The translations under genes and the position numbers were made by a program. A stretch of DNA of 21,541 nucleotides. It comes from Burkholderiales bacterium (lineage in GTDB: Bacteria; Pseudomonadota; Gammaproteobacteria; Burkholderiales; Usitatibacteraceae). Positions within the stretch are counted from its first letter, which is position 1. Each line of letters begins with the position of its first letter. The notes under the pieces were generated by a model, which saw nothing but the letters and a program-made list of their open reading frames with translations, was not told the origin of the DNA and searched no databases. Location: contig JACMOJ010000046.1 in the NCBI GenBank assembly GCA_014378085.1, positions 1-21,541 of the forward strand, given 5' to 3'. Shown here in pieces: positions 3 through 19,043 of this stretch.

Positions 3-1286
3 GTTTCCACTGTTCATGCGCAAAGCATCACCGTTCAAGCGCAAAGCATATTTGTCAATGGCTCCAGCACTCCCTGTCCGTCCGCTACGGTTACGTTTGG
101 CGCCGGGGTAATTAATATTAATACGGCCGGATGTACTGGCACCCCCGTGGCATCCCAGCCGAGCATTTCAAGCGTCTCCCCGTCTAGCGGTCAATCTGGG
201 GCGCAAGTCACTATAAATGGTGCCAATTTGGCTGGCGCGAATATCACCATTGGTGGTCAGTCTGCCGGTATTTCAAGTAACACCGGAACCACCATCACGA
301 CCAGCGTCCCAGCGGGGGCGACCGCAGCTGGGGGTGGCGTAGTGGTGGTTGTGCCGGGACTTGCACCCGCATTATTTCCTTTTTCAGTATTGAATTCCTC
401 CCCCGTCGCACCGTCCGCGCCTACCATCTCGCAAGTGACACCGGCGTCCGCGTCAGCAGGCACCACCGTTATAGTTAATGGGTCAGGCTTTACCGGAGCT
501 TCAGTGAGGATCGGTGGTGCAACAGCCAACATCACCACAAGCAACGCCACCTCTATCACAACGACAGTCCCTGCAAACGCAGCTATTGGTGCCGGCACAT
601 TAGTGGTCACCAACGCTACAGCGTCGGCATCCTTTGCTTTTGTCGTGAATGCGATAGTGGCCGGATGCGATGACGTATCAGAAGACGGCATTCCCCTTGG
701 ATGCGTCAGCAAGCAACCAACCAGCGTTGTAGCTTTAGCGGCAAGACACAACGGATTAAACGGTGCGGGCCCGGAAATGAACGCTTACTCAATGGGTGCG
801 ACACGATGCTCTACAACGCCACCGCTCACAAAGTCGTGGCAACACAACATCGACTTGAAGGAGTACAAGCGGAACGCAATCGATGTCTTTTTGCTTAACG
901 CCAATGAATCGATGAGTTACAAATTCACGGTCCCAAATTCGGACACCACAGGCGGCTTTTCGTACGGTGAAGCAGCAGCTTCAGGCGGAAGTTACCCGCC
1001 TGTATTCATGTCGATTACTTCAGCGCCATGTGATTTCGACACTTCAAAAGTAGCATCGGGACCTGCCCAGAATTTTTGTTACCAAAGCGGCATCGCGGGC
1101 TTGGCAATGGGCTGGACGACGGTAACAGGTGTTTCGCTACCCATATCCTACTGCCGACTCAAAAAAGGCGAGACCTACTACTGGAACATCCGCTTTCAGG
1201 ACGCACGGCCTGTCTCGGAAGGTGGGTCTCCGACGCGCGATTCCTGCAGCAGCAGTCCTTGCGGCGGCGTCTTGCAGATTCTGTAA
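3..1286 (+). CDS. Exported IPT/TIG-domain protein, 5' end outside the window
   Basis: The reading frame is open from base 3 (427 codons to the TAA at 1284-1286), so the gene starts upstream of the window; the GTG at 147 is not a convincing start. The first visible residues, VSTVHAQS, resemble the end of a signal peptide with an AxA-like cleavage site (VHA|QS), which suggests export. Two IPT/TIG immunoglobulin-like domains follow, each opening with a P-x-I-S-x-V-x-P motif and a V-x-(I/V)-x-G motif: about bases 159-390 and 420-645. The C-terminal part (about 660-1286) is not recognised; it has about nine Cys, including a closing C-S-S-S-P-C stretch, probably in disulfides. IPT/TIG domains are known as spacers or binding modules in surface proteins. 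Its function is unknown. It could be an envelope protein served by the glycan locus downstream, but that is only inferred from proximity. Confidence 0.75.
   Translation, partial: VSTVHAQSITVQAQSIFVNGSSTPCPSATVTFGAGVININTAGCTGTPVASQPSISSVSPSSGQSGAQVTINGANLAGANITIGGQSAGISSNTGTTITTSVPAGATAAGGGVVVVVPGLAPALFPFSVLNSSPVAPSAPTISQVTPASASAGTTVIVNGSGFTGASVRIGGATANITTSNATSITTTVPANAAIGAGTLVVTNATASASFAFVVNAIVAGCDDVSEDGIPLGCVSKQPTSVVALAARHNGLNGAGPEMNAYSMGATRCSTTPPLTKSWQHNIDLKEYKRNAIDVFLLNANESMSYKFTVPNSDTTGGFSYGEAAASGGSYPPVFMSITSAPCDFDTSKVASGPAQNFCYQSGIAGLAMGWTTVTGVSLPISYCRLKKGETYYWNIRFQDARPVSEGGSPTRDSCSSSPCGGVLQIL
12..49 (+). repeat. Short direct repeat in the IPT/TIG gene
   Basis: Bases 12-28 and 33-49 are 17-mers differing at one position and spaced 21 bp apart, exactly seven codons. 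They encode the near-repeated peptides VHAQSIT and VQAQSIF around the proposed signal-peptide cleavage site. It is a small in-frame duplication, not a mobile-element signature. Confidence 0.5.
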
Positions 1287-1338: not shown

Positions 1339-1358
1339 GCCTTGAGACAAAATTGCAC

Positions 1359-2303
1359 ATGAACCGAACACGAAACCTTTATCGCGTCATAGTTGGTGCC
1401 GTTGCGCTCGCATTAACGTCCAGTATTTTCGCCCAGATTGTCGTACCGCCCGATACAGTGCTCGCCTTCAACGCAAGGGCCAAAATTACCTATGCAGATC
1501 TCCTTGCGGACATGGAGAGGCTTCCTGAAGAGAATCGAATTGAGTTCCTGCTCAATGAAAAACGCGTCGCCGCCGTTATCGAGAACCTACTGATTAACAA
1601 AATCATGTCCGCCGAGGCAAGAGCTTCAGGACTGCAAGATAATCCGAAAGCCGCGGCAGAAATACGCAATCAAACCGAAAGAGTACTGGCCAAATATCGT
1701 CGGGAAGAACTCGAAACCAAAGCGCCCAAGATCGACCTGTTCCCGCTTGGACGTGAAATCTACCTGACTCGCCTGAAAGACTTCGAACGCCAAGCAATCT
1801 ACACCAGTTGGCACACCCTTATCAAAACACAGGGCCGCACGCTTGAAAGTGCGCGCGAAATCGCCAAACTGGTCAAAGCCAAAGTAGATGCTGGTGGACC
1901 ACTCGACCAGATCGCAAAAGAATTTTCCAACGACGAATCGGTCACCGCCAATTCTGGCTACATCACGCCAACTCCCCTTTCCAATCTTGACCGCGAATTT
2001 GCCAATGTGCTTGAGAAACTCAAGGAAGGCGAGTCAGGTATCGTAGAGACAGATTACGGGGTTCACGTTGTGCGCCTGCTCAAAATGATCCCGCGCCATC
2101 GGCCCACACTGGAAGAGGTAAAGCCGTACTTGCTAGCCGAGGCCGACAAAGTCTACAAAGTACGTATCGTGGAAGACCACCTCAAAAGCATTCGAACCGA
2201 CCCAACCCTCAAATTCGAAAAAGAAGTACTCAAGCAAATACGTCCCAAGCTACCCGAGATTCCGCCGCCTCCTGCCGCAGCGCCGCCCACCCGACCTTTT
2301 TAA
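1359..2303 (+). CDS. Periplasmic parvulin-type peptidyl-prolyl cis-trans isomerase (SurA/PpiC/EpsD-like)
   Basis: The product is predicted to catalyse cis-trans isomerisation of prolyl bonds and act as a periplasmic folding factor. The ATG at 1359 is chosen over the TTG at 1353 because it gives a clean signal peptide: basic MNRTRNLYR, a hydrophobic core, and a likely cut near residues 25-26 (SIFAQ). A helical, SurA-N-like region (about 35-145) is followed by a parvulin domain (about 146-243) with the two family histidines visible: H152 in a W-H-T-L-I variant of the usual A-S-H-I-L, and H236 in Y-G-V-H-V-V. The C-terminus is a proline-rich tail (P-P-P-P-A-A-A-P-P). Length is 314 aa. Only 9 bp separate it from the permease gene, so it is probably co-transcribed with it. 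Parvulins of the EpsD type are known from exopolysaccharide clusters in betaproteobacteria; assignment to that exact subfamily is inferred. The Shine-Dalgarno sequence is weak. Confidence 0.85.
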   Translation: MNRTRNLYRVIVGAVALALTSSIFAQIVVPPDTVLAFNARAKITYADLLADMERLPEENRIEFLLNEKRVAAVIENLLINKIMSAEARASGLQDNPKAAAEIRNQTERVLAKYRREELETKAPKIDLFPLGREIYLTRLKDFERQAIYTSWHTLIKTQGRTLESAREIAKLVKAKVDAGGPLDQIAKEFSNDESVTANSGYITPTPLSNLDREFANVLEKLKEGESGIVETDYGVHVVRLLKMIPRHRPTLEEVKPYLLAEADKVYKVRIVEDHLKSIRTDPTLKFEKEVLKQIRPKLPEIPPPPAAAPPTRPF

Positions 2304-2312
2304 CGCTTCAAT

Positions 2313-3095
2313 TTGCTCACCCCCGGCCCACAACCGCTGCTCCTGCTGGTTAGATTCACCGAGCGTGAAATTCTTTCTCGATTTGCTGGTAGCGCTTTCG
2401 GCCTAATCTGGGCACTTGCTAATCCGCTGTTGTTGCTCGCGATATACGCGTTCGTCTTCGGCCAGTTGTTCAAAACCAGAATGGGAGATCTGTCTATGGA
2501 CAGTTACCTCACATTTTTAGCAATAGCACTATGGCCATGGATGATGTTTGCAGATGGCGTGATGCGCGCGATGCAAAGCGTGCAGGCGAACGCACCCCTG
2601 GTAAAGAAAGTTGCGTTTCCGCACCTGTTGTTGATATTGGCCGCCGTCAACAGTGTGTTTCTCGTGCACCTAGCTGGCTACGTCGTCATCCTCAGCCTCC
2701 TTGCAGCAACCGGGCACACGCTGCATCTCGCCGGCATACCCTCGGCGATGCTTGCAATTACAACGATGTATTTGCTCGCGGTCGGCGTTGGCGCTTTTCT
2801 AGCCGCGCTTCAGACGCTACTGCGCGATGTGGAGCAAGTGGTCGCACCCGCACTGATGATGATGCAATTTCTGACACCGGTACTTTACCCGGTAACGATT
2901 ATCCCTGAAGCCTATCGACACCTGTTCGCATGGAATCCCTTAACCGGAGTCATGCAACGCCTGCGCGATGGCTTGTTGTCGGGAACCACGCCGCAATATA
3001 CAGATTTGCTCGTCTTGTCAGTTGGCATCATGGTCGCGATTATTGGCATCAGTTTTTTTCTCCGCTTGTCACCGTACTTCGAGGATTTTCTGTAA
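2313..3095 (+). CDS. wzm: ABC-2 type polysaccharide/O-antigen export permease (Wzm/KpsM/TagG family)
   Basis: This is the inner-membrane channel subunit of an ABC exporter for lipid-linked or capsular polysaccharide; it pairs with the ATPase encoded next. The N-terminus carries the family pattern F-T-E-R-E-I-L-S-R-F-A-G-S-x-x-G-L-I-W-A-L-A-N-P, an amphipathic segment before the first membrane helix. About six hydrophobic segments follow, with a conserved L-T-P-V-L-Y-P-V-T-I-I-P-E region near residues 188-200 and W-N-P-L-T-G after it. Length 260 aa is normal for the family. An in-frame stop at 2301-2303 (that of the previous gene) limits the start; the only early candidate is the TTG at 2313, since the next ATG falls after the first helix. 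No good ribosome-binding site is visible, so translation may depend on coupling to the isomerase gene 9 bp upstream. The symbol reflects family, not proven substrate. Confidence 0.88.
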   Translation: MLTPGPQPLLLLVRFTEREILSRFAGSAFGLIWALANPLLLLAIYAFVFGQLFKTRMGDLSMDSYLTFLAIALWPWMMFADGVMRAMQSVQANAPLVKKVAFPHLLLILAAVNSVFLVHLAGYVVILSLLAATGHTLHLAGIPSAMLAITTMYLLAVGVGAFLAALQTLLRDVEQVVAPALMMMQFLTPVLYPVTIIPEAYRHLFAWNPLTGVMQRLRDGLLSGTTPQYTDLLVLSVGIMVAIIGISFFLRLSPYFEDFL

Positions 3096-3229: not shown

Positions 3230-4447
3230 GTGTCTTTCTCCGACTCCAACGATCTCATCCGTCTTGACCACATCAGCAAGGACTATCCGGTCATCCGCTC
3301 CGGGGCCGGTCGACTGCGAACTGTTTTTGAATTGCTTACCGGGCGCGCCGTGCATGATCACTATCGGGCGCTGGACGACATCAGTCTTACTGTTCGTCGC
3401 GGCGAGTCTTGGGGAATCATCGGTGAAAACGGCGCAGGCAAATCAACCCTTCTTAAAATCATTGCCGGGGTCGTAAAGGCTTCCAAGGGTACTTTGGTTG
3501 CGCAGGGACGCGTCAGCGCACTGCTGGAATTGGGCACAGGGTTTCACCCCGAATATAGCGGGAGAGATAACATCTTCCTGGCCTCGGCGTTGATGGGGTG
3601 GAGCCGGACCGAAACGCACGCGCAACTAGATGCAATCCTTCGATTCGCCGATATCGGCACACACATCGATCAGCCCGTCAAAACATATTCGTCGGGTATG
3701 GTAGTGCGATTGGGTTTCGCGGTCGCGACCGCACTATCTCCCGATTTGCTCGTGACCGACGAAGTGCTCGCGGTGGGCGATGAGTCATTCCAGAAAAAAT
3801 GTCTGCGCTGGATGGAAGATTTCCGGGCGAACGGAGGGACATTTCTGTTGTGTTCGCATAGCATGTACCACGTGCAGTCGCTCTGCCAGCAAACCATGTG
3901 GATACACGATGGCAAAATGCACATGCAGGGAGAATCATTCATGGTGACGCAAGCTTACCTCGCGCACCATGAAGCCAAAAACAGGAAAAACGTGCTCACG
4001 GCACCATCCAAAGCCGAATCGATTGCGCCATTTCCAATGCTGGCCGCACTCTGGATCGAAGACAATTTCGGCGCTTGCCGAGAGCAGTTTGATATGTCGG
4101 AAGACCTTGCGCTATGCGGAACGTATCAAACGCCGGAAGACAGGCCAACTGTGCTTATGGCGGGCATTGTGAGAATGGATGGCACACCGGTCTTCGGCAC
4201 GTTTTCAAATGACGCTGGCTTCAGCGCGAATCGACTCGCGCCTAATGTATTTGGGTTTTGCGTTAATTTCAGGCGCAATGCGTTGCTACCGGGCATGTAC
4301 CATCTTCGCGCGCACACGCTAGACGGCCACGGGCTGCGCATGTTCGATACGCGCGAAGTGTCCCTCACCATCCGCGGCAAGACTCGCGATCATGGCTTTG
4401 TGCGCCTCGACCACGAATGGACGCCAGGACACGAGCCGCCACCGTGA
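3230..4447 (+). CDS. wzt: ABC transporter ATP-binding protein for polysaccharide/O-antigen export with Wzt-type C-terminal domain
   Basis: This cytoplasmic ATPase drives glycan export through the permease encoded upstream. Visible motifs are Walker A GENGAGKST (residues 65-73), the signature Y-S-S-G-M (153-157), Walker B D-L-L-V-T-D-E (172-178) followed by the V-L-A-V-G-D typical of KpsT/Wzt/TagH ATPases, and the H-loop S-H (209-210). After about residue 250 there is a further ~155-residue region, mostly beta-type in appearance, matching the position of the Wzt C-terminal carbohydrate-binding domain. In characterised Wzt proteins that domain recognises the modified end of the O-polysaccharide, so chain-end-dependent export is a reasonable inference. 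The start GTG at 3230 gives a normal N-terminus (MSFSDSNDLIRLDHISKDYP). The stop overlaps the GTG at 4444 by 4 nt (GTGA) and the ATG at 4417 by 31 nt, so it is probably translationally coupled to the next gene. Confidence 0.9.
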   Translation: MSFSDSNDLIRLDHISKDYPVIRSGAGRLRTVFELLTGRAVHDHYRALDDISLTVRRGESWGIIGENGAGKSTLLKIIAGVVKASKGTLVAQGRVSALLELGTGFHPEYSGRDNIFLASALMGWSRTETHAQLDAILRFADIGTHIDQPVKTYSSGMVVRLGFAVATALSPDLLVTDEVLAVGDESFQKKCLRWMEDFRANGGTFLLCSHSMYHVQSLCQQTMWIHDGKMHMQGESFMVTQAYLAHHEAKNRKNVLTAPSKAESIAPFPMLAALWIEDNFGACREQFDMSEDLALCGTYQTPEDRPTVLMAGIVRMDGTPVFGTFSNDAGFSANRLAPNVFGFCVNFRRNALLPGMYHLRAHTLDGHGLRMFDTREVSLTIRGKTRDHGFVRLDHEWTPGHEPPP

Positions 4448-7400
4448 CAACCCAACCACCACCACTGACGCCAGAGCTTCGTGCGCTAGCGCAGCAGTCG
4501 TTTCAGCATCAGGCGGCGGGCCGGTTTGCGGAAGCCGCGCAGGGTTACATTGCCGTACTCTCAAGGGCACCGGCACTTTGGTCGGCATGTTACAACCTGG
4601 GGCTGGTTTATCAGCATTTGGGGCGCCTCCGTGATGCCGCGGAAATGTATCGGCGCGCGATACGACTTAACCCGCAACTCGCGGAAGCGCACAACAACCT
4701 GGGCAATGTGCTCAAGGCGCTGAAAAACGAAGCTGCCTCCATCGAGGCCTATCAGAGAGCCATCAGTCTCAATCCGCAGCTCGCCGACGCGACCTACAAT
4801 CTCGCCATTATGTTACAGGCGCGTGGCGAGCATGCGTCGGCAAACGCGTTGTTTCAAAAAACAATTGCAGCTAACCCAACGCACGTTGCTGCGTGGGATG
4901 CGCTTTATCGAAGCCTGCTTGGGCTAAAGCGGTATGAAGAAGCTGTCGCGCTTTTTCTCGCGTGGGACCGCGCACTACCGCCGTGTCCCGAATTGGTGAC
5001 TGCCGGGCTGGCGCTATGCCGATCAACCGGTGACCGAGCACTTGAAGCACGCTATCTTGCCTTGGCACTAGATTGGCCGTTCGAAGATTTCACCCCCACC
5101 CAATTTACGCCGATCCTCGGCATGATCCAATATTTTGACGTGACTGCGGCGCAATTGCTCGCATGCTATCGCCGCTATGACGCGGCTGTTGCGGCGCGCC
5201 AGCCGATCGTGATTCCGATGTTGCCGCGACGTTCAGCCGATACGCGATTGCGCATCGGCTATGTATCGGCGGACTTTCGACGCCATGTGATGGGACGCTG
5301 GATGCTGGACATCATTTCCAGGCATGACCGCAATCGCGTTAGCATTTATCTCGTCTCAACGTGCCCGCGCCGCGAATACGATGCGATGACGGATGCGTTT
5401 CGCAAACATGCCGATGGCTTTGCAGACATCAGCGAACTGGACGATTTTGCCGCCGCCAGGAGCATTGCCGAGGCCGACCTGGATATTCTGGTTGATCTTG
5501 CGGGACACACAATGGCCGCACGCCCCGAAATTTACGCGCATCGTCCCGCAAGAAGCATCGTTACTCACCTCGGCTATCACGGGTGCCTGGGGCTCAGTGC
5601 AATCGACTTCAAATTGACGGATCGCGTCGCCGATCCGATCGACGCAGCCAAATTCCAGATTGAGCGGCCCTTCGCGCTAAATACGTGTGTGTTCCCGTTT
5701 GTGCGAGTTGCACCGGGCGCCGCCGATCCCATGATGGCGGCCGGTCTCGGCCTGGAGGGAAAATTCGTTTTTGCTGCATTCACCAATGAACTCAAACTTT
5801 CCGCCAGATGCCTCGCGGTGTGGCGGCGTGTGTTGGAGGCGCTACCGGAGGCGATGCTGCTGTTTTCGCCGCTCTCGCCCTCCCAGCATGCAGGTATTTA
5901 TCGCATCCTCACAACCGCCGGTATCGATAAATCGCGTATCGCGTTTCTGAACGTACCGGTTGACGATGCAATCTGGCGCGCACGCTACCGCCTGGTACAC
6001 GCGGTGCTGGACACATTTCCGTATGCGGGCGGTGATACCACGCTCGCGGCACTCGACATGTCCGTTCCAGTAGTAACGCTGCTGGGTAAGCGGCATAGCG
6101 AGCGCGTCGGCGCCAGCATCCTGACGCATCTTGACATCAACGAAACGATCGCAAGAACGGACGATGAATTTGTCGCAATCGCAGTCAGGCTGGCACGTGA
6201 CGCCACATTTATGGCGCAAACAAGGCGGCGTATCGAAGCCGCCGTCGCCGCGACCGATCTGACCGCGTACACCCGGTCGCTGGAGCTTGCGTTCGCCGAC
6301 ATTGCCGCTGACGAGCCAGTGACCCAGTCGATGACGCTCACCGCTCGAGAGTTCTTTCAGACTTTGCGCGAGGCCGTGCGACGCCACCGAGCGGCAAACG
6401 ATATTGAAGCGCAAAGTACCGTGGCCACGATTTATGCTGCTTTGCGTGTTGAGCAACCAGACTATCCGCCGCTGTTGCGCGCTGAGGGTGATCTCGCGCA
6501 AACGATGGGCAACCTGACGCTCGCCACCAATTGTGCAAGCGCCTTGTTGCGAATTTTTCCGGATGACCTTGATGTCCGATTGTCGTCAGCCGGCTCCCTT
6601 ATTGACGACGGCGCAGCTGCAGATGCATTAAGTATATTACCGCCGATTTCCGATGACGGCGAAAGCGATGTACGCGTACTCAAGTTGTACGTCCGCGCAC
6701 ATGCGAAACTGCGACAGTGGGCTGCCTCTCTAAGCTACAGCACGCCGGCAGTTGCGCTGGCGCCGGCCGATGTGCAGGTGTTGTTCTGGCACGGCATAGT
6801 GCTCTCACATACAGCCGACGCTGAATCTGCGCTGGCGTACCTCAACCGTGCATTGATTCTTGCACCGGATCACATCGAGGCCGCTTATAACGCGGGTGTG
6901 ATTCTCACCGAGCTGGGCAATTACCGGGATGCGGAGACCGTCTTTCGACGCGCGCTCAACGCACCTGCCGCAAGCACCACCACAGCAGTACGGGTCAACG
7001 CGCATCTTCGGCTATTGCAGTTGTTGTGGATGCAAGGCCGCCATGAGGAGTGGATGCTTGAAGGACAGAAGTTCGCCGACGCTTCCCCGGGTCTAGCGCG
7101 CTCGCGCCTGATTGCATCACGCATCGCACGCGACAGTGGGCAACTCGAACGCGAATCAGAAATTCTGTTGCCGCTGGCTGAAGAGGCGGCGGCGCTGAAG
7201 GACGACGTGAGCGCGCTCGAATTGATCGGTGAATTGTTGGCGTCACTTTGTTATCACGATGTTCCGGGGCAGTTGTTGCAGCGGCTGAACAAGCGCTTCA
7301 GGGAAGCTGCGCACGCGCTTTACCCGCCGATGGATGCGCTGCAACTAGCTGACGAAAACCACCTATTGCAGGTAGGTTACCTGGTCGATTTTTGTCAGCC

Positions 7401-8478
7401 TTTTGTCGCGGACTTCATCGGCGTCCTTGTTAGCCACCACGATTTGCAGCGTGTGCGTATACACATCTATGCCATCAGTCCTGTTGCGCCAGAAATACGT
7501 GACGCACTACTCGCTGCCGGGATCCAGTTGATATCGGTAGCAACTTTTGATGAGCAACGCGCCGCACAAAAGATTCGCGCCGACGGCCTGGCCATCTTGA
7601 TAGATGTCGCAGCTTTCGGGCATTACGCCAAGCTTGGACTGCTCTCATTCAGACCGGCGCGTGTTCAGCTGGCATTGCCTGGCTTCATGGCGCCGGTTGG
7701 CGCCGGTGATGTCGACTATCGCTTGTCCGATCAAGTGGCGGAGCGCGACGCGACCCAAAACACAGCCATTTCCGCCCCGATTCTTCTCGACGGTGGCGTA
7801 TTCCCACTATTGCCCGTCCCGCAAAGTAGATCGCAACTCACACGCGAGCAACTTGGCATCGGCACCGAGGTTGCGGTGTTCGGTGTCCTGGCGGCGGCAG
7901 CGCGCCTGTCATCGCGCTGTGTAACGACATGGAAAGCGCTTGCCGATACAGCGCCAGATGCCGTGTTTTTTGTTTGCCCTCTGCAGGCCGCCGACCGTGA
8001 GCCGATCAGAAGGCTGCTTTTGGCCGGGGGTATCGAGGATACTCATATCCTGATGCTGCCCGCAGCCTACGCGCGCCCGCGCGATGTGGTGCTCACGGGA
8101 ATGGTGGATGTCATTCTCGACACCATGCCCGGTAGTGATTATTTCAGCACGCGTGCTGCCATCCATGACGCGATCCCGCTTGTGACTATGTCCGGCCGCA
8201 TGTTTGAAGAGCGCGTCGCACTCTCGCTATTGACCCATCTTGGTGACCGATCCACGGTCGCGGCAAGTGGTCGCGACTATGTGGGGATCGCGTCGAAGTT
8301 GGTGCTGGAACTCACTGCATCTCCTACGGCGCGCGCAGTTCGGACCGATCGTCAGCGCGAATTGTTGCGGAAATCACCGATTGCGGATATGCGTCGTTAT
8401 GTGGCCCAGTTTGAAGCCGCACTGTTTCGTGCCGCCGCACCATGTGCCGTACCGGACAGGACGGAAATATTGCCATGA
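4417..8478 (+). CDS. Double TPR-GT41 (SPINDLY/O-GlcNAc transferase-like) glycosyltransferase, 1353 aa
   Basis: The layout is TPR - GT41 - TPR - GT41, apparently an internal duplication of a TPR-glycosyltransferase unit. The first TPR block (about residues 20-175) has clear repeats such as A-E-A-H-N-N-L-G-N-V-L. The first GT41 domain (about 277-640) has G-Y-V-S-A-D-F-R-R-H (H290), D-L-A-G-H-T (360-365), K460 in N-E-L-K-L-S, and D-T-F-P-Y-A-G-G-D-T-T (532-542). The second TPR region spans about 650-930 and the second GT41-like domain about 984-1340. The second domain has no His at the H290 position (D-F-C-Q-P-F), Arg1163 in place of K460, and Y-F-S-T where the first has G-D-T-T, so it is probably catalytically dead or altered. 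GT41 enzymes transfer sugars from nucleotide donors, mostly to protein Ser/Thr (OGT) or Asn (HMW1C); the donor and acceptor here are unknown. The start may instead be the GTG at 4444, which forms a GTGA overlap with the ATPase stop. No signal peptide is seen, so it is probably cytoplasmic. Confidence 0.85.
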   Translation: MDARTRAATVTTQPPPLTPELRALAQQSFQHQAAGRFAEAAQGYIAVLSRAPALWSACYNLGLVYQHLGRLRDAAEMYRRAIRLNPQLAEAHNNLGNVLKALKNEAASIEAYQRAISLNPQLADATYNLAIMLQARGEHASANALFQKTIAANPTHVAAWDALYRSLLGLKRYEEAVALFLAWDRALPPCPELVTAGLALCRSTGDRALEARYLALALDWPFEDFTPTQFTPILGMIQYFDVTAAQLLACYRRYDAAVAARQPIVIPMLPRRSADTRLRIGYVSADFRRHVMGRWMLDIISRHDRNRVSIYLVSTCPRREYDAMTDAFRKHADGFADISELDDFAAARSIAEADLDILVDLAGHTMAARPEIYAHRPARSIVTHLGYHGCLGLSAIDFKLTDRVADPIDAAKFQIERPFALNTCVFPFVRVAPGAADPMMAAGLGLEGKFVFAAFTNELKLSARCLAVWRRVLEALPEAMLLFSPLSPSQHAGIYRILTTAGIDKSRIAFLNVPVDDAIWRARYRLVHAVLDTFPYAGGDTTLAALDMSVPVVTLLGKRHSERVGASILTHLDINETIARTDDEFVAIAVRLARDATFMAQTRRRIEAAVAATDLTAYTRSLELAFADIAADEPVTQSMTLTAREFFQTLREAVRRHRAANDIEAQSTVATIYAALRVEQPDYPPLLRAEGDLAQTMGNLTLATNCASALLRIFPDDLDVRLSSAGSLIDDGAAADALSILPPISDDGESDVRVLKLYVRAHAKLRQWAASLSYSTPAVALAPADVQVLFWHGIVLSHTADAESALAYLNRALILAPDHIEAAYNAGVILTELGNYRDAETVFRRALNAPAASTTTAVRVNAHLRLLQLLWMQGRHEEWMLEGQKFADASPGLARSRLIASRIARDSGQLERESEILLPLAEEAAALKDDVSALELIGELLASLCYHDVPGQLLQRLNKRFREAAHALYPPMDALQLADENHLLQVGYLVDFCQPFVADFIGVLVSHHDLQRVRIHIYAISPVAPEIRDALLAAGIQLISVATFDEQRAAQKIRADGLAILIDVAAFGHYAKLGLLSFRPARVQLALPGFMAPVGAGDVDYRLSDQVAERDATQNTAISAPILLDGGVFPLLPVPQSRSQLTREQLGIGTEVAVFGVLAAAARLSSRCVTTWKALADTAPDAVFFVCPLQAADREPIRRLLLAGGIEDTHILMLPAAYARPRDVVLTGMVDVILDTMPGSDYFSTRAAIHDAIPLVTMSGRMFEERVALSLLTHLGDRSTVAASGRDYVGIASKLVLELTASPTARAVRTDRQRELLRKSPIADMRRYVAQFEAALFRAAAPCAVPDRTEILP
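8458..8465 (+). promoter_or_regulatory. Ribosome-binding site deciding the start at 8475
   Basis: The purine-rich AGGACGGA ends nine bases before the ATG at 8475. The alternative ATG at 8442 lies upstream of this site and has no comparable motif, so the downstream start, overlapping the preceding stop by 4 nt, is preferred. Confidence 0.55.
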
Positions 8479-10739
8479 CGGCGCGTCTGAACGCAGCGCG
8501 CGGCGCGCTGCACGCGGGACGAACGGAGCAGGCCATTGGCCAGTTGGCGCAGATCACGTCAACGGAACCAGCGAATGCGGAAGCATTTAGTTTGCTTGCA
8601 GTCGGTTATGTACGCATCGCGAAGCTGGGGGAGGCGCAACAAGCCATGACGCGTGCGCTGGCACTGCATCCGCACAATGCCGACTATCACTTGACTGCCG
8701 CCAATATCGCGCAGGACCTAGGCCATCTTGAAGCTTCGGTGGCGTTGCTTGGCAGAGCGCTGGTCCTGCGTCCCTCGTTTGCGCAGGCGCATAACAATCT
8801 TGGTATCGTCCTGTCCGATCTGGGCCGGGTCGAGGAAGCAAGTAATGCCTTCAACGAAGCGATTCGTTTGAACCCGCAGTACGCGCGCGCTTACGCTAAT
8901 CTGGCTACCGCACAGATGCGCCTGCTGAAATTGCAAGACGCGCTAAACTCTGCGCAACGCGCGATCAACCTGCAACCAGAATACGCGCACGCGCACCATC
9001 TTTTGGCCAATGCACACACGATGCTGGGCGATCCCCAGGCGGCGGAACTGGTGCTCACCAACGCGTTGCGGTTAAAACCCGATCTGGTTGAGTCCTCATT
9101 GCTCTTGGCCCAGGTGCTGAGCAAATTGAAGCGCCCCGATGAGGCGGAGCGGGCGGTTCGACACGCGCTCACGCTTTCGCCCAATCGCGCCGAACTTTGG
9201 ACACTGCTAGGGGATCTCGTCAGCGGTCGCGACGACCTCGCCGCGGCGCTCGACGCCTACCAGCGCTCGCTGCAATTGCGACCCAGTGATGTCACCACGA
9301 CAGCGCGCGCGGCATTGCTGCTGCCCAATATTTACGCTAGTGAAGCCCATCTGACAGCTTGCCGAACGCGCTACACGCGCGGCATCGACTATCTGGTCGC
9401 GAATGCCGAAATATTATCCACCTCTGTCACGCGTGAGCGCTTGGGCGATGCGGTGTCGAGCAATTTCCTGCTCGCCTATCAGGGAAGCGACGACACCATT
9501 TTGCAGCGTCTGTACGCGAACTTTATTCACACGCTCGTGCTGAAGGCATTACCCGAACAGGCGAACGCGCTGGAAACATTGCGCAACGCGCGGCAAGGCG
9601 CCGGCACCAGCCGGAGAATTCGCGTCGGATTCTGCAGTCGCTTCTTCTATCGCAGTACCGTCGGCAATTATTTTGGCAAATGGGTCACCGACCTTGATCG
9701 CAGTGTCTTTGAAGTATTTGTTTATCACTCGCATGTGATCGAGGATGAAGTGGTAGCCGAGTTACGGGGCACGGCAGATCATTTTGTGCAGGGCGCCGAA
9801 AACTTTGCATTTTTCTCGAAACGCATTGCTGCCGATGAACTCGACATCCTTGTCTACCCAGAGCTGGGCATGGACCTGATGTGCTTCCTGCTCGCTGCGT
9901 TGCGCTTGGCACCCTTGCAGGTTTGTGCCTGGGGGCATCCTGTCACGCCTGGCCATCCGACGATCGACTACTTCATTTCGTGCGCGGCTATGGAGCCCGC
10001 CAACGCAGCGGCACATTACAGCGAGCGCCTGCTGACTTTGCCCGGCATTGGCACGCGTTACGACTTACCGTCGGTAACCGCACCGATCTCGAAAAAGACT
10101 AGGGTGGACTATCAACTGCCAGAAGACGCGCATCTCTACTTATTTCCACAATCGCTATTCAAAGTACATCCGGCCAATGACCGATTGCTGGTTGCGGCCA
10201 TGGCCAACGACCCGGAGGGTGTACTGGTAATGTTCGCCGGGCAGAATGAAGGCGTCACGCAGAAGTTTATTGCGCGCTTGTCGGCGGCCTTCGTCGCTCA
10301 GGGCGTTGCGCCTCAGGGTCGGGTAAAGCTATTGCCGTTCGTGACCCACGACGATTACAAACGCATCAATGCGTTGTGCGATGTGATGCTCGATACCTTG
10401 CACTGGTCTGGCGGGAATACATCGCTCGATGCACTGGCTATGGGAGTGCCGACCGTGACGCTGCCGGGAGAGTTCATGCGCGGCCGGCAAACGATGGGCA
10501 TGCTCACATTGCTCGGCGTCGATGAGTTGATCGCGACTTCAACGGACGACTATCTTGCCATCGCCGCCAAACTGGGTACCAACAAAACCTATCGGTATAC
10601 CATCTCGCAGAAAATCCTCGCCAATGTGCCTCGCCTGTTCAATGATGTTGCACCGACGAAGGCACTGGGCGCGATGTTGGAGTCATTGGTTGTGAACGAG
10701 CGCAAGGCATCCGGGCGGGACGCATCACCACGGCAATGA
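8475..10739 (+). CDS. TPR-containing GT41-like (SPINDLY family) glycosyltransferase, 754 aa
   Basis: The N-terminal ~275 residues form eight consecutive 34-residue TPR units, a probable superhelix for acceptor or partner binding. The C-terminal region (about 380-750) is GT41-like: R-V-G-F-C-S-R-F-F-Y-R-S-T-V-G-N-Y-F (from R383), D-I-L-V-Y-P-E-L-G-M, A-W-G-H-P-V-T, F-P-Q-S-L-F-K-V-H-P with K563 matching the nucleotide-binding Lys of the family, and H-W-S-G-G-N-T-S-L-D-A-L. At the position where related enzymes usually have His (F-F-x-x-H-T-V-G), this protein has Ser394. The ATG at 8475 is preferred over the one at 8442: it makes a 4-nt ATGA overlap with the previous stop and has an AGGACGGA-like ribosome-binding site at 8458-8465. 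The gene downstream encodes a shorter paralog. It is probably cytoplasmic. Acceptor unknown. Confidence 0.85.
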   Translation: MTARLNAARGALHAGRTEQAIGQLAQITSTEPANAEAFSLLAVGYVRIAKLGEAQQAMTRALALHPHNADYHLTAANIAQDLGHLEASVALLGRALVLRPSFAQAHNNLGIVLSDLGRVEEASNAFNEAIRLNPQYARAYANLATAQMRLLKLQDALNSAQRAINLQPEYAHAHHLLANAHTMLGDPQAAELVLTNALRLKPDLVESSLLLAQVLSKLKRPDEAERAVRHALTLSPNRAELWTLLGDLVSGRDDLAAALDAYQRSLQLRPSDVTTTARAALLLPNIYASEAHLTACRTRYTRGIDYLVANAEILSTSVTRERLGDAVSSNFLLAYQGSDDTILQRLYANFIHTLVLKALPEQANALETLRNARQGAGTSRRIRVGFCSRFFYRSTVGNYFGKWVTDLDRSVFEVFVYHSHVIEDEVVAELRGTADHFVQGAENFAFFSKRIAADELDILVYPELGMDLMCFLLAALRLAPLQVCAWGHPVTPGHPTIDYFISCAAMEPANAAAHYSERLLTLPGIGTRYDLPSVTAPISKKTRVDYQLPEDAHLYLFPQSLFKVHPANDRLLVAAMANDPEGVLVMFAGQNEGVTQKFIARLSAAFVAQGVAPQGRVKLLPFVTHDDYKRINALCDVMLDTLHWSGGNTSLDALAMGVPTVTLPGEFMRGRQTMGMLTLLGVDELIATSTDDYLAIAAKLGTNKTYRYTISQKILANVPRLFNDVAPTKALGAMLESLVVNERKASGRDASPRQ

Positions 10740-12484
10740 AGGTTCCACCGCCTGAATCGATTGGCTCAACGACATCGTTGCATCCGTCGTGGGCCGAATC
10801 TGCGGGCAGGCTCTATGTAGCGGGCGACATCGTTGCGGCGATCGGGATCGTTGAGGCCCGTATCACGAGCAATCCAGGTGATGCAGCTGCATGGCACAAG
10901 TTGGCGCGATGGCTGGCGGAAACCTGGCAATTCGCGCGTGCAGATATCGTTATCGGGCAAGCGCTCACACTGTTCGGTGAGGATGCTGCGTTGGGGGCCT
11001 TGCAGGTGTTTGCCAAACAGGAATTGGGGCAAACGGACGCGGCGCGAGCGGTTGCCTTGAATGCCGCGGGGCACTTTCCAGATCGCCTTTCGTTCCAGTT
11101 CGATTCGAGACTGCTTTTGCCTATGGTGTACGCCGATAAAGCAGATCTCGATGCCAGGCGCGCGCAATATGCAGCCGGTCTGGGTGAAATAGAGGCGATG
11201 TCGCCGACGTGGCAGCAGGATGCGTCGCGCATCTACGCGCTCGAGCGCAGCAATTTCCTGCTCGCTTATCAGGGTGAAGATGATCTTTCACTGCAGCGTC
11301 GCTACGCCAATGTCATCGGCTCGCTGATCGCTACGGCGGACCCGACACTGCGCGAGCGACCGCCCTGCACCGCTCGCGTCGGGGATAAGCTGCGCGTGGG
11401 CTTTGTCGGCAAGTGGTTTTTTTCCTGTACCGCCGGGAATTATTTTGAACGCTGGATTACCCAGCTCGATGCCGCACGCTTTGAAAGATTTGTTTATTAC
11501 ACCGGCCAGACAAGCGATGACGTTACCACGCGCATCGGCGCAGCAGCGGAGCACTTCACACGCCTGCGAGGCAACACGCACACCAACGCACAACGTATTC
11601 GTGCCGATGAACTCGATATCCTCATTTACCCGGAAGTGGGTATGAGCACCGGCTCCTATCTGCTCGCCAGTTGTAGGTTGGCGCGTATACAGTGCGCAGC
11701 CTGGGGGCATCCGGTCACCACGGGTAATGACGCCATCGATGTGTATTTCAGTTGTGCCGAAATGGAGCCGCCGGAGTGTCAATCGCATTACGCTGAACGC
11801 GTGTTGTTGCTCGACGGCATTGGTGTGGATTTCGCGATGCCAGAGGTGGGTGCACCAGGCGCACGTGCGGATTTTGGCCTTCCTGCGTCGGGGCGCCTGT
11901 ATTTTTGCCCGCAGTCGCTTTTCAAGATTCATCCTGACATGGATGACGCATTTGTAAAAATTCTCGAAGCCGATGCCAATGCAGTGCTGGTGTTCTTTCA
12001 GGCCGATAGTCGCGCCGTCACGTTCGCCTTCGCAGATCGCCTGACGCGCGCACTCGCCGCCCGTGCCATCAGCGCGAAAGGGCAGATCAAATTCCTGCCG
12101 AGGCTGACTACAGAGGCATTTCGAAAAGTACTCCAGCTTGCCGATGTGTTACTCGATCCCTTCCATTGGTCGGGTGGAGGCACCAGCCTCGATGCCTTTG
12201 CCGGTGATGTGCCGGTGGTGACGCTGCCGGGAAGATTCATGCGCGGTCGCCAGACGGCAGCGATGCTGCGTATGATGGCGGTAGAGGTGTTGGTTGCGAC
12301 GGACATAGAGACGTATGTCAAAACAGCAGTCGAGGTGGCCGGCAATCAAACGATGAACCGCGATTTGCGCGCAATCATCCATGCCCACAAGAGCACGCTT
12401 TTTGATCGCCATGATCTCAATGGCCAATTTGCTGATTCGCTGATTTCTCTCGCCTATTCGGCGGAGGAAAAAGAAAAAACGTAG
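10736..12484 (+). CDS. Short-TPR GT41-like (SPINDLY family) glycosyltransferase, 582 aa
   Basis: This is a paralog of the preceding gene with a shortened repeat region: roughly three degenerate TPR units (about residues 20-115) before the catalytic part (about 215-575). Conserved elements shared with the neighbour include S-N-F-L-L-A-Y-Q-G, Y-P-E-V-G-M, A-W-G-H-P-V-T-T-G, C-P-Q-S-L-F-K-I-H-P (K397), H-W-S-G-G-G-T-S-L-D-A-F and L-P-G-R-F-M-R-G-R-Q-T. The His-containing motif near the start of the catalytic domain is replaced by W-F-F-S-C-T-A-G-N-Y-F, with Cys231 at the expected His position. The ATG at 10736 overlaps the previous TGA in an ATGA. Three tandem GT41-type enzymes could act sequentially or as a complex, but the sequence does not show which. 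The C-terminus ends in a Lys/Glu-rich tail. Substrate unknown. Confidence 0.83.
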   Translation: MKVPPPESIGSTTSLHPSWAESAGRLYVAGDIVAAIGIVEARITSNPGDAAAWHKLARWLAETWQFARADIVIGQALTLFGEDAALGALQVFAKQELGQTDAARAVALNAAGHFPDRLSFQFDSRLLLPMVYADKADLDARRAQYAAGLGEIEAMSPTWQQDASRIYALERSNFLLAYQGEDDLSLQRRYANVIGSLIATADPTLRERPPCTARVGDKLRVGFVGKWFFSCTAGNYFERWITQLDAARFERFVYYTGQTSDDVTTRIGAAAEHFTRLRGNTHTNAQRIRADELDILIYPEVGMSTGSYLLASCRLARIQCAAWGHPVTTGNDAIDVYFSCAEMEPPECQSHYAERVLLLDGIGVDFAMPEVGAPGARADFGLPASGRLYFCPQSLFKIHPDMDDAFVKILEADANAVLVFFQADSRAVTFAFADRLTRALAARAISAKGQIKFLPRLTTEAFRKVLQLADVLLDPFHWSGGGTSLDAFAGDVPVVTLPGRFMRGRQTAAMLRMMAVEVLVATDIETYVKTAVEVAGNQTMNRDLRAIIHAHKSTLFDRHDLNGQFADSLISLAYSAEEKEKT

Positions 12485-12610: not shown

Positions 12611-13660
12611 ATGGCTGACGCAAACTGCACCAAGGCAATGATCCCGTCCCTCACCAATCCCGTCGTCAGCATCGTCGTTCCTGTCTACAACGCCACTGCA
12701 TATCTCGAAGCCTGCATGAATAGTCTCTGCACGCAGGACTTTGCCGCTATCGAGATCATTGCCGTTGATGACGGCTCAACAGACGGCGGCGCCACGCTTC
12801 TCGCCAAGTGGGCAAAGCGCGATCCACGGGTGAAGATACTTTCGCATCCCCAACAAGCCAATCGCGGTGTTGCCGCGACTCGAAACCTTGGGCTCGCTTA
12901 CGCGCGTGGCGAGTATCTGTGGTTTGTCGATGCCGATGACCGCGTGCGTCCGAGTGCTATTTCGCATTTGCTCGCGCTTGCAAAAGCCAGCAATGCCGAT
13001 GTCGTCGCGTTCAACGCCGAGGATGGTGGTGTGGGCACCGCGCCGCACCGTATATATCAGCAGCCAAAGCCCACGACCAAAATGACCGGCGAAGCGTGGG
13101 TGGCTTTGAGTTGTCGACAAAAGGAATTTCCGCATCTGGTCTGGCTGCGTTTTTATCTTCGAACCTATCTGGAGGCGTGCGGCTTACGGTTCCATGAAGG
13201 CATCGTGCATGAAGATATCGCCTGGATTACCGAGGGCGATTTGCGTGCGCATCGGCTGGTGTACAGCGATGCGATTCTCTACGATTACGCGCGCAATGTA
13301 CGTTCAATTACCGGCGACGAAAGTGACGCCAGCCTGCTGCGCCGCGCGGAGGGTTTGCTGGTGGTGGTCGATCAGCTTCGCGATATCAATCAGCGTGTGC
13401 CCATGTCGGTAGAAACGCGCACGTTGCTGCGTGCGGAACTGGTGGGACAAGGACTGCAAGTTGACCACCTGCGTCAGCACATCACAGACGCTGGTATGCG
13501 CAAACGCATTGACGATGGCGTGAAACAAAAAGATCTCTGGCGCACGTTATGGAAAGATGCCACCCGCCTAACCCGCAAACGCCAGCTCGCCCAGGTCATG
13601 CTGCGCGAGTGGTTTCAGCACAAAGCGCCGTCACGCCGACCATGCAATCCCAGCCAATGA
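12611..13660 (+). CDS. Family 2 glycosyltransferase (GT-A fold)
   Basis: It transfers a sugar from a nucleotide-sugar donor, probably on the cytoplasmic face of the inner membrane during glycan assembly. The N-terminal GT2 fold is clear: V-S-I-V-V-P-V-Y-N (19-27), D-D-G-S-T-D (53-58), N-R-G-V-A-A-T-R-N (84-92), the metal/donor-binding D-A-D-D (107-110), and H-E-D (200-202) as the likely catalytic-base motif of EpsJ/WcaA-like GT2 enzymes. The last ~120 residues are helical and basic. Length 349 aa is normal. The ATG at 12611 is the first in-frame start; an internal ATG at 12638 is also possible and would remove nine residues before the fold begins. The stop shares an ATGA with a start for the ligase-like gene, indicating coupling. 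Sugar specificity cannot be read from sequence. Confidence 0.9.
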   Translation: MADANCTKAMIPSLTNPVVSIVVPVYNATAYLEACMNSLCTQDFAAIEIIAVDDGSTDGGATLLAKWAKRDPRVKILSHPQQANRGVAATRNLGLAYARGEYLWFVDADDRVRPSAISHLLALAKASNADVVAFNAEDGGVGTAPHRIYQQPKPTTKMTGEAWVALSCRQKEFPHLVWLRFYLRTYLEACGLRFHEGIVHEDIAWITEGDLRAHRLVYSDAILYDYARNVRSITGDESDASLLRRAEGLLVVVDQLRDINQRVPMSVETRTLLRAELVGQGLQVDHLRQHITDAGMRKRIDDGVKQKDLWRTLWKDATRLTRKRQLAQVMLREWFQHKAPSRRPCNPSQ

Positions 13661-14931
13661 CCGCCACGCGACACCTAATTCGCTTAGCATCTGTGGCAGC
13701 CGGCATTGCAATTTTCGTCGCGCCCTTTCGCTCCAGCGCCGGGCTGCGTGGCGCAATGCTGGTACTTGCAGGGTTGGCTATTCTTTTCGCTTACGTGCGT
13801 GTGGGCCAGTTCAGGCAATTTCTGTTGCCGTACAGAGTGCTCGTTATCGCGACGGGTGCCTGGCTGCTTGTTGCTTCGCTTTGGTCGTTCCTCAGTCCAT
13901 CGCCACTCGAGAGTTTGTCCGCGGTGAAGCGTGACATCCTCACACCGATGCTGGCGTTTATGATTTTTTATGCGTTGACGCGAACCCGTGCTGACATGAT
14001 GCGCTGGGTTTCGGTCCTGACTGCGGGCTTACTCATCTTGACGGTTATGATCGTACGGGAGCCCTTCGATCCGCACGCCACTTTGCAGGAATCGGACTAC
14101 CTGACCGTAGGCTTGCTCACGACCTGGATCGTTACACTCGCGCCGATGTTGGCGTTGTCACTATTTGCAAGCCGTCCGTGGCGCCGCCGTGCCATGTTGC
14201 TGTCGATTGCTGGAGCGCTTTGCCTGTTGATTTCAGCATGGCTCTCAGGCAATCGTACCGTGTGGGTGTGTTTTGCCGCCATGGTGGTCGTGGCGACTGG
14301 TCTGGGCATGCGAGGGCGACGCGTCGTGAATAATCGGTGGCGGACATCCGCGCTCGTACTCGGCCTGATGGCGGTGCTGGCGACGTTCATGTTTGCAGCG
14401 ATGCAGTTTCGCGCGCAAACACAGGCGCCAGCGGGCACCGGACCGCTGGCGTTCCTGTTGCGCGACAGCCGCGTGCCGATTTTGACCGTGGCGATCGACA
14501 TGATTGGCGAAAATCCCCTGCTTGGTCGGGGCTATGGCAATCCAGAAATAGGTCATATTTTTGCGGCCCGCTTTGAAACGCCGTGGCTGCGAAATTACGT
14601 GCATCATCCGCACAATGTTGTTCTAAATTACGCTTTGCAAATGGGCGTGACCGGCTCGGTAGTGATTCTTTTTCTATTTGCAGCGCTGGCGTGGACGTTC
14701 TTTAGGCTATTGCCGCTGGGCGGTCTGGCGCGGCTGGCGGGGCTATGCGGGTCGGCGCTGGTAGTCGGGGTATTGCTGCGTAATATGACCGACGATTTTT
14801 TTTCGCGGCATACCGTGCAATTCTTCGGTGCAGCTGCAGGCATGTTGGTTGGAATGGCGACGCGCCGACTGCCCCTAAACGTGCGTCGCAGAGAAAAAGT
14901 CTGGGCACCAGGATTACAACGGCTCGCTTGA
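13657..14931 (+). CDS. O-antigen ligase / Wzy_C-type polytopic membrane protein
   Basis: This inner-membrane protein has about ten hydrophobic segments. A large loop carries the Wzy_C/ligase landmarks: S-G-N-R-T-V-W-V after a membrane helix, G-E-N-P-L-L-G-R-G-Y-G, and H-H-P-H-N-V-V-L-N-Y-A (H316, H317, H319, N320), where WaaL and PglL-type enzymes have an essential His. Members transfer lipid-linked glycans in the periplasm to lipid A-core (WaaL) or protein Ser/Thr (PglL/O-OTase), or polymerise repeats (Wzy). Beside an ABC exporter a ligase role is more likely than Wzy, but protein O-glycosylation cannot be excluded. The ATG at 13657 (ATGA overlap with the GT2 stop) is preferred; 13642 is a close alternative, whereas a start at 13549 would require a 112-nt overlap and a polar N-terminal extension. 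It is the last gene of the + strand locus. Confidence 0.82.
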   Translation: MTATRHLIRLASVAAGIAIFVAPFRSSAGLRGAMLVLAGLAILFAYVRVGQFRQFLLPYRVLVIATGAWLLVASLWSFLSPSPLESLSAVKRDILTPMLAFMIFYALTRTRADMMRWVSVLTAGLLILTVMIVREPFDPHATLQESDYLTVGLLTTWIVTLAPMLALSLFASRPWRRRAMLLSIAGALCLLISAWLSGNRTVWVCFAAMVVVATGLGMRGRRVVNNRWRTSALVLGLMAVLATFMFAAMQFRAQTQAPAGTGPLAFLLRDSRVPILTVAIDMIGENPLLGRGYGNPEIGHIFAARFETPWLRNYVHHPHNVVLNYALQMGVTGSVVILFLFAALAWTFFRLLPLGGLARLAGLCGSALVVGVLLRNMTDDFFSRHTVQFFGAAAGMLVGMATRRLPLNVRRREKVWAPGLQRLA

Positions 14932-15005: not shown

Positions 15006-15692
15006 TTACAACGCCAACCGGTACCCCACGCCCGTCTCCGTAATCAGATACTTCGGCTGTGCCGGATCATCCTCAAGCTTCTGCCGCAGATGTTGCATGA
15101 AGATTCGCGGATAGTGTGTCTGCTCGATATGCGTCGGCCCCCACACTTCCTTGACGATCTGCCGGTGTGTGAGCACCTTGCCTGCATGCGCGCACAAGTA
15201 CGCTAGCAAGCGAAATTCAATCGGTGTGAGGTGTACATCTTTTTCGGCTTTTCGCGTGACTCGGCTGGCAAGATCAATTTCCACGTCACCAATTACGACC
15301 ATGCTATCGCCAGACTCACTGTTGCGCGCGGATCTACGCAACGCAGACCTCACGCGCGCCAGCAGCTCGCCAACGCCGAAGGGTTTGGTCAGATAGTCAT
15401 CAGCCCCCAGATCGAGCGCCGCGATTTTGTCGGCTTCAGACGAGCGCGCTGATAGCACGATCACTGGCACGTTTGACCAGCCGCGCAAATCGCGAATCAA
15501 TTCCAATCCGTCGCGATCAGGTAATCCCAGATCGACAATCACCAGGTCGGGTTTGCGCGTACCGGCTTCAATGAGTCCACGCGCGACAGTCTCGGCCTCA
15601 TAAACCTGGCAGCCTTCCTCTTCCAGTGCCGCGCGAACGAAACGCCGGATCTGCGGCTCGTCTTCGACCAGTACAACTTGCCGTGCGCTCAT
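15006..15692 (-). CDS. kdpE: KdpE, response regulator of the potassium-uptake operon
   Basis: An OmpR/PhoB-type DNA-binding regulator that activates kdp transcription when phosphorylated by KdpD under K+ limitation. The receiver domain (about 5-118) shows the acidic pair D11/E12, phospho-acceptor D54 in I-V-D-L-G-L-P, and K103 in L-T-K-P-F. A winged-helix domain (about 130-226) follows, with the KdpE-like stretch R-I-F-M-Q-H-L-R-Q-K-L and the terminal E-T-G-V-G-Y-R-L. Length 228 aa is standard. Its ATG shares a 4-nt ATGA with the kdpD stop, so the two are translationally coupled. It is the last gene of the operon; its stop lies 74 bp from the convergent ligase-like gene. Confidence 0.96.
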   Translation of the reverse strand: MSARQVVLVEDEPQIRRFVRAALEEEGCQVYEAETVARGLIEAGTRKPDLVIVDLGLPDRDGLELIRDLRGWSNVPVIVLSARSSEADKIAALDLGADDYLTKPFGVGELLARVRSALRRSARNSESGDSMVVIGDVEIDLASRVTRKAEKDVHLTPIEFRLLAYLCAHAGKVLTHRQIVKEVWGPTHIEQTHYPRIFMQHLRQKLEDDPAQPKYLITETGVGYRLAL

Positions 15693-18430: not shown

Positions 18431-18434
18431 ATTA

Positions 18435-19019
18435 TCACTTCATATTATCCAGGGCGAGGTTAACTTTTAGCACGTTTACATGCGCGTTTCCAAATATGCC
18501 GAGCCAGTTGGCCTGGGTGTTTGCCGCGACAACTTCACGGACTTTTGCTTCCGGCAAGCCGCGTACTTTTGCGACTCGCGCGAGCTGATATTCGGCGGCA
18601 GCCTCACTGATATGTGGATCCAGTCCACTGCCTGACGCTGTCACCAGATCGATCGGTACGGCCTTGGTCTGTTTGATGCCGGCATCTTGGTCGCCCTTGC
18701 CGAGTGCCTCGACGCGCGCCTTTGCGTTGTCAGCGAGTACCGGGTTCAATGGGCCGAGATTTGTGCCGCCCGATGCAGAGGCGTTGTAGGGATACGTGCC
18801 GGTACCGGACAATCGACCCCAGAAGTATTTGGGTTCCGTAAACTGCTGGCCGATCAGCGCGGAGCCGATGAGCTTGCCGTTCTGCTCGATCAAGCTGCCG
18901 TTCGCCTGGCTGGGAAATACCAATTGTGCAACGCCGGTGGTCAGCATGGGGTAGATCAAGCCGGTGATCACGGTCATCAATAGAAGCATCAGAACTGCGG
19001 GTTTTATTTGCTTAAACAT
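18435..19019 (-). CDS. kdpC: KdpC, potassium-transporting ATPase C subunit
   Basis: A single-span subunit of the KdpFABC complex that stabilises it and is thought to raise ATP affinity of KdpB. An N-terminal hydrophobic helix (about residues 6-30: [18 protein letters not shown]) anchors a soluble domain with family motifs [46 protein letters not shown] and [10 protein letters not shown]. Two starts are possible: an ATG at 19025 and this one. This one is chosen because the AAGGA motif (plus-strand 19027-19031) lies 7 nt upstream of it but only 1 nt from the other. Length is 194 aa. The start lies 24 nt downstream of the kdpB stop. Confidence 0.95.
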
Positions 19020-19026
19020 GTTCATT

Positions 19027-19031
19027 TCCTT
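19027..19031 (-). promoter_or_regulatory. Ribosome-binding site of kdpC
   Basis: On the minus strand this reads AAGGA inside a longer purine run. Its spacing of 7 nt to the ATG at 19019 is ideal, whereas the ATG at 19025 would be almost touching it. It therefore decides the kdpC start. Confidence 0.7.
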
Positions 19032-19043
19032 TCGATACAGCGT

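Follow-up and report, generated by a model that had tools for sequence, protein, structure and literature searches.

A double TPR-GT41 protein with a predicted pseudo-glycosyltransferase half in a GT41-plus-exporter locus of a Burkholderiales bacterium

The double protein and its two halves

The stretch of DNA analyzed here (hereafter the window: 21,541 nucleotides, contig JACMOJ010000046.1 of assembly GCA_014378085.1 from a Burkholderiales bacterium) carries on its forward strand a gene (4417..8478, ATG start) for a 1353-aa protein in which a unit of tetratricopeptide repeats (TPR) followed by a glycosyltransferase family 41 (GT41) domain occurs twice. The first half consists of a TPR region (approximately aa 34-190, 4516..4986, from a domain match) and a GT41 domain referred to here as GT1 (aa 268-628, 5218..6300), and the second half of a TPR or otherwise helical region (approximately aa 640-970, 6334..7326, from a domain match and the model) and a further GT41 domain referred to as GT2 (aa 976-1345, 7342..8451). 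The first half is intact and keeps the His and Lys of GT41 enzymes, whereas GT2 has a complete GT41 fold in its model but no longer has the catalytic residues, and is probably a pseudo-glycosyltransferase.

The original prediction had read the repeated TPR-GT41 unit from the translation by eye. This is borne out by Pfam, in which PF13844 (Glyco_transf_41) matches the protein at 1.5e-64 in four stretches alongside TPR repeats, and by comparison with solved structures, in which aa 1-638 match SPINDLY at 5e-77 (TPRs counted in) and the last 402 aa match it at 7.2e-27. In fold comparisons of predicted models, both halves superpose on SPINDLY, XcOGT, and OGT. By profile as well as by fold, GT1 and GT2 both belong to GT41, the fold of GT2 being that of a predicted model. 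GT2 was modeled by itself because the VIA-align search with the long model effectively spanned residues 1-407 only; the full-length model has a predicted template modeling score (pTM) of 0.67, and the relative placement of its two halves was not relied on.

Residues lost from the second half

An HHalign comparison of the family profiles of the two halves aligned 350 columns at 27% identity (probability 100, E 2.6e-51), and paired DFRRH, NELKLS, and PYAGGDTT of GT1 with DFCQP, AAARLS, and PGSDYFST of GT2, respectively. The active-site His H290 (codon 5284..5286) faces P995 (7399..7401), the pyrophosphate-binding Lys K460 (5794..5796) faces R1163 (7903..7905), and the donor loop GGDTT (G538-T542, 6028..6042) faces DYFST (D1241-T1245, 8137..8151). 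The earlier by-eye placement was the same for the Lys and the donor loop; for the His, the proposed loss stands, but the exact counterpart is P995 and not the Phe that had been offered beside it. The scaffold said to flank these sites (D-T-x-P, P-x-V-T, and E-R-V-x-x-S-L-L-T-H-L) is present, and structural superposition, suggested as a check at the time, upholds the GT2 alignment by the fold of the model as the profiles do.

The contacts of SPINDLY with GDP-fucose, as given in the available part of the source (PMC10027727), were transferred through alignments of each half to SPINDLY. Among 16 further donor-site positions mapped in this way, 15 differ between GT1 and GT2 of the window protein, and the sixteenth (SPINDLY E752) is Ala in both. 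Across the family, the GT1 residues N457, K460, L385, S484, R523, Y536, G539, D540, and A544 vary little or not at all; their GT2 counterparts are, in the same order, A1160, R1163, P1088, C1187, L1226, G1239, Y1242, F1243, and A1247. OGT residues other than L866, R904, and C917, and the His of SPINDLY, carry their customary numbers.

Conservation of the loss among homologs

A protein search with the second half as query, in which scoring was limited to the 7996 candidates with most words in common with it, returned 62 proteins at E <=0.001; relatives with a second half of very different sequence are therefore under-represented. Of these, 54 (P0006-P0059) were aligned with the window protein, and eight distant matches were left out. 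The homologs have 44-92% identity and lengths of 1191-1364 aa, except P0058 (1083 aa), which ends before the Lys position of GT2 (n = 54 for that position), and P0059 (771 aa), which has no first half (n = 54 for GT1). P0059, named as from a Betaproteobacteria metagenome-assembled genome (MAG), consists of the second half and the tail of the first only, through gene fission, a frameshift, or an assembly error.

All 54 rows covering GT1 have the active-site His, the pyrophosphate-binding Lys, and an unchanged GGDTT. At the facing positions of GT2, His is absent from position 995 in all 55 rows (Pro 53, Leu 1, Arg 1) and Lys from position 1163 in all 54 (Arg 42, Gln 5, His 4, Asn 2, Met 1), while Asp 1241 is invariant (54/54) and Tyr 1242 nearly so (53/54). 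Nearby, His occurs within the aligned window 988-1002 in only 2 of 55 rows, neither at 995, and Lys within 1157-1168 in none of the 55-row alignment.

The second half is under purifying selection, with a dN/dS that a rough estimate puts well below 1, a measure that had been proposed as a check on the original prediction. GT2 evolves faster than GT1, with a mean pairwise identity of 51% vs. 71%, and 43 vs. 118 positions conserved in at least 95% of rows. For 12 pocket positions (without the base loop), mean entropy is 0.17 in GT1 against 0.88 for the domain, a value reached by a fraction of 0.0004 of 20,000 random sets; in GT2 it is 1.05 against 1.53, reached by 0.037 of random sets. By this comparison, the GT1 pocket is strongly constrained and that of GT2 weakly, and strong new selection on the GT2 pocket as a whole is not supported. 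In GT2, 23 positions are at least 95% conserved yet unlike the GT1 residue (one has no GT1 counterpart), including P995, P1088, D1241, and Y1242 at old donor-site positions.

The shared loss of the same residues in relatives had been named beforehand as what would support a pseudoenzyme, and it extends across the homologs. As expected of a pseudoenzyme, the second half has lost its catalytic residues in orthologs too, keeps its fold in the predicted model, and is under purifying selection; together with the agreement of profile and fold, this supports the earlier suggestion that it is one.

Relatives and origin of the dead half

Searching genomes with the second half (E 1e-40) produced matches in 8 of the 399 genomes sampled from the order, in 6 of 28 from the family, and in 1 of the 369 sampled from the class of G001. 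Among 61 relatives of G411, six matched, every one already among the earlier matches. Ortholog-like proteins were found among the matched genomes only in G001 (73% identity) and in G411 (78%, with the gene truncated where the contig begins). The remaining loci encode doubles with a dead second half (L025, and the close copies L027 and L028), doubles in which His and Lys are retained in the second half (L026 and L029, which are distant and not orthologs), and single GT41 proteins (L030-L035). A further protein search, for which the second half of L025 was the query, added P0069-P0072, whose second halves, as aligned, are also without His and Lys. Plasmid records gave 70 matches, all below 60% identity, one of them with a single place covering at least 80% of the query, and a pattern scan of viral contigs confirmed no relative. 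Two other proteins, P0073 (1817 aa) and P0075 (1767 aa), have three and two GT41 domains respectively, of similar score each, so that multi-GT41 chains occur elsewhere too.

The 15 dead halves in a 47-row domain tree group together as a single clade (99/98), and its union with active second halves and related singles has weak support (86/65). The inner branches of this clade are long, and the program issued a warning about long branches that meet at the outgroup. An earlier 60-row tree, with two rows flagged as long, also recovered the dead clade (89/94), and did not reject dead and active second halves as one group (approximately unbiased test, p-AU 0.315). One origin of the dead halves sampled is thus supported by computation, and the simplest reading would be that a single duplication preceded a single early loss. 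At the His position, the dead subfamilies differ from one another (Pro; Arg, Gly, or Thr; Asn or Ser), and the Y1242 position is Pro, Val, or Ala in those other than that of the window protein. All three dead subfamilies compared share D1241 and a motif SG-x-[DE]-Y (S1284-Y1288, SGRDY in the window protein, 8266..8280), and the two active second halves compared have neither.

The donor pocket of the first half

Despite its conserved His and Lys, GT1 has an unusual donor pocket. A544 lies at the position of the ribose-binding acid of SPINDLY (E752) and is Ala in 54 of 54 rows, so that this acid is missing from GT1 throughout; the OGT counterpart is presumably D925. An Asp four residues earlier (D540) is also invariant (54/54), and might stand in for the missing acid. 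According to the available part of PMC10027727, OGT R904 reads uridine and SPINDLY Y744 clashes with the N-acetyl group; GT1 has R523 at the place of the former, and Y536 at the place of the latter, which is C917 in OGT. R523 suggests a UDP (uridine diphosphate) donor and Y536 would argue against an N-acetyl sugar, and our guess is a UDP-hexose. In the first TPR region, N60, N94, and N128 are invariant in the rows covering them. Since they resemble the Asn ladder with which OGT and SPINDLY hold peptides, as described in the same part of that source (PMC10027727), a protein acceptor is possible.

Neighboring genes and predicted exporter

Upstream of the double gene on the same strand are genes for a PpiC-type peptidyl-prolyl isomerase (rotamase, 1353..2303), an ABC-2 permease similar to Wzm/KpsM (2313..3095), and a Wzt-like ABC ATPase with a C-terminal extension (3230..4447), whose frame overlaps the double gene by 31 bases. 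Downstream are a TPR-GT41 protein distantly related to the HMW1C/NGT enzymes (8442..10739, overlapping the double gene by 37 bases), a second GT41 protein of the same NGT-like group (10736..12484), a glycosyltransferase of family GT2 (a family name, distinct from our domain GT2; 12611..13660), and a Wzy_C/O-antigen ligase-like protein (13549..14931). The potassium transport genes kdpB, kdpC, and kdpD with a response regulator in the kdpE position follow on the reverse strand (15006-21116). The two frame overlaps look as in a translationally coupled operon. Against shuffled sequences, promoter-like sites numbered 4 (7.9 expected) and terminator-like sites 19 (17.3 expected); a possible terminator, a 15-pair stem with a T-rich tail (1302-1335), lies between the rotamase gene and a gene for a TIG/Ig-like protein (3-1286) beside the operon. 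Relatives of the latter occupy the same place at L001, L025, and L028, all of which have dead second halves, and this protein might be an acceptor.

The permease and ATPase matches are clear. The ATPase profile aligns with the solved structure 8dku, which we take to be a Wzm-Wzt O-antigen transporter, beyond the ATPase domain to chain position 348 of 404; a Wzt_C match appeared in the relative L028 only, at 20.2 bits vs. a cut-off of 30.4. Both downstream GT41 proteins match solved HMW1C-like structures and the NCBIfam NGT model, the latter far below its cut-off of 1000 bits (77.3 bits for 8442-10739 and 36.8 bits for 10736-12484). In these two and 12 further NGT-like domains (rows in L001, L025, L026, L028-L031, L034, and L035), the His position is Ser, Cys, or Gly and the Lys is kept. 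The place of the window's third GT41 gene, after the NGT-like gene, is taken by a methyltransferase gene in L025 (12368-13240) and L028 (4561-5397).

Among 12 related loci surveyed within contig limits (L036 was left out as lying on the same contig as L001), a Wzt-like gene is present in nine and a rotamase gene in seven, at times kilobases off; no Wzt-like gene was seen in the retrieved stretch of L029, L034, or L035. A link of dead second halves, and not of active ones, to the ABC exporter was considered and rejected, as Wzt-like genes also occur at L026 (an active double) and L030-L033 (singles). Judging from gene neighborhood, the double protein is part of a recurring locus of GT41 and exporter genes, which probably serves a surface glycan or glycoprotein.

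Proposed function and alternatives

The explanation we favor, and consider fairly probable as a whole, is that the protein pairs a glycosyltransferase, its first half, with an old pseudo-glycosyltransferase, its second half, which serves as a helper. Computed support comes from the fold kept in the model, the family-wide loss of His, Lys, and donor loop, the purifying selection on GT2, and the single origin of the dead halves. That GT2 no longer acts as a GT41-type catalyst is very likely; that it serves acceptor or partner binding seems only slightly favored, by analogy. Because the second copy keeps its shape without the chemical machinery in every close relative examined, it is probably a helper part rather than an enzyme. 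GT1 would use a nucleotide sugar to glycosylate a protein or glycan held by the TPRs; GT2, unable to catalyze the same transfer, would hold the acceptor or dock GT1 to the neighboring GT41 proteins, comparable to GtfB for GtfA; and the product would probably be carried out by the adjacent Wzm/Wzt-type ABC exporter. A bolder version, which we regard as rather improbable, sees the dead half as a GT41 cleft put to a new use: it would read the growing glycan or glycoprotein, as an acceptor or length sensor within the same polypeptide, and couple the active half to the neighboring GT41 proteins and the exporter.

Several points weigh against the explanation we favor. Because A544 replaces the ribose-binding acid, the activity of GT1 is something we infer, and the acceptor-binding role of GT2 is an analogy. 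L035 carries one GGDTT-type GT41 without a second half, so such enzymes can manage without one. When the base loop is counted, pocket conservation does not clearly exceed that of the domain (fractions of 0.16 for GT1 and 0.19 for GT2).

Alternatively, GT2 may be a repurposed ligand site or an enzyme of other chemistry, with the old sugar-phosphate site rebuilt from P995, P1088, D1241, and Y1242 together with K1072 and SG-x-[DE]-Y. The 23 conserved GT2-specific positions, four of them in the old donor site, and the occurrence of D1241 and SG-x-[DE]-Y throughout the three dead subfamilies compared would fit such a site. However, the Y1242 position differs in the other dead subfamilies, the GT2 pocket positions as a set are just slightly more conserved than the domain, and an acid in place of the phosphate-side glycine would be unfavorable for a nucleotide sugar. 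Since the dead subfamilies differ in what they have at the catalytic position, another chemistry is less probable, though a new ligand site may exist; overall we judge this alternative unlikely.

Equally unlikely, in our estimate, is that GT2 is a structural remnant that stabilizes the long protein without a specific partner or ligand. Its faster evolution and the little constraint on its pocket agree with this, but the GT2-specific invariants, the signature common to the dead subfamilies, and the dN/dS well below 1 suggest more than packing, although packing alone can give such values too. We withdrew the argument that a useless half ought to have disappeared more frequently, since a set of homologs collected with that very half as query gives no measure of its outright loss. 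That the second half is really active, through misalignment or decay in this strain alone, is highly improbable, as HHalign, MAFFT, and fold comparison agree, the His is lost in 55 aligned proteins and the Lys in 54 of 54, and no supporting evidence was found.

Relation to known systems and significance

Similar to OGT and SPINDLY, the window protein combines TPRs with a GT41 domain, keeps the His and Lys in GT1, and superposes on them with both halves. Unlike them, it has two TPR-GT41 units in one chain, the second without catalytic residues, and in GT1 the usual donor loop and ribose acid are replaced by GGDTT and A544. In accessory Sec adhesin glycosylation, the glycosyltransferase GtfA works with GtfB, a chaperone-like partner that handles the acceptor, according to the available part of PMC6973325. 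The likeness to this pair, so far as that part describes it, would be in the way of working only, a catalyst paired with an acceptor-handling partner. GtfA and GtfB are separate proteins of another kind with DUF1975, and no sequence kinship is claimed. GtfB itself is, as we assume, an inactive glycosyltransferase relative. The likeness to HMW1C/NGT lies in the two downstream neighbors and not in the double protein. As in Wzm-Wzt export, an ABC-2 permease and an ATPase aligning with 8dku past its ATPase domain are adjacent, but the exporter here stands with GT41 enzymes.

Pseudo-glycosyltransferases are already known as a kind, and OGT-type enzymes are mostly regarded as single catalytic units. 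In the open literature, judging by titles and abstract openings, neither a GT41 pseudoenzyme nor a double GT41 protein was described among the matches listed. The relatives described here include singles, doubles with two intact sites, and doubles in which the second site is dead while its fold appears to be kept over long divergence. They point to a recurring GT41-rich locus with a Wzm/Wzt-type exporter in what seem, by record names, to be Betaproteobacteria. This natural set of singles, active doubles, and dead doubles lets one ask what role a GT41 domain may have beyond catalysis.
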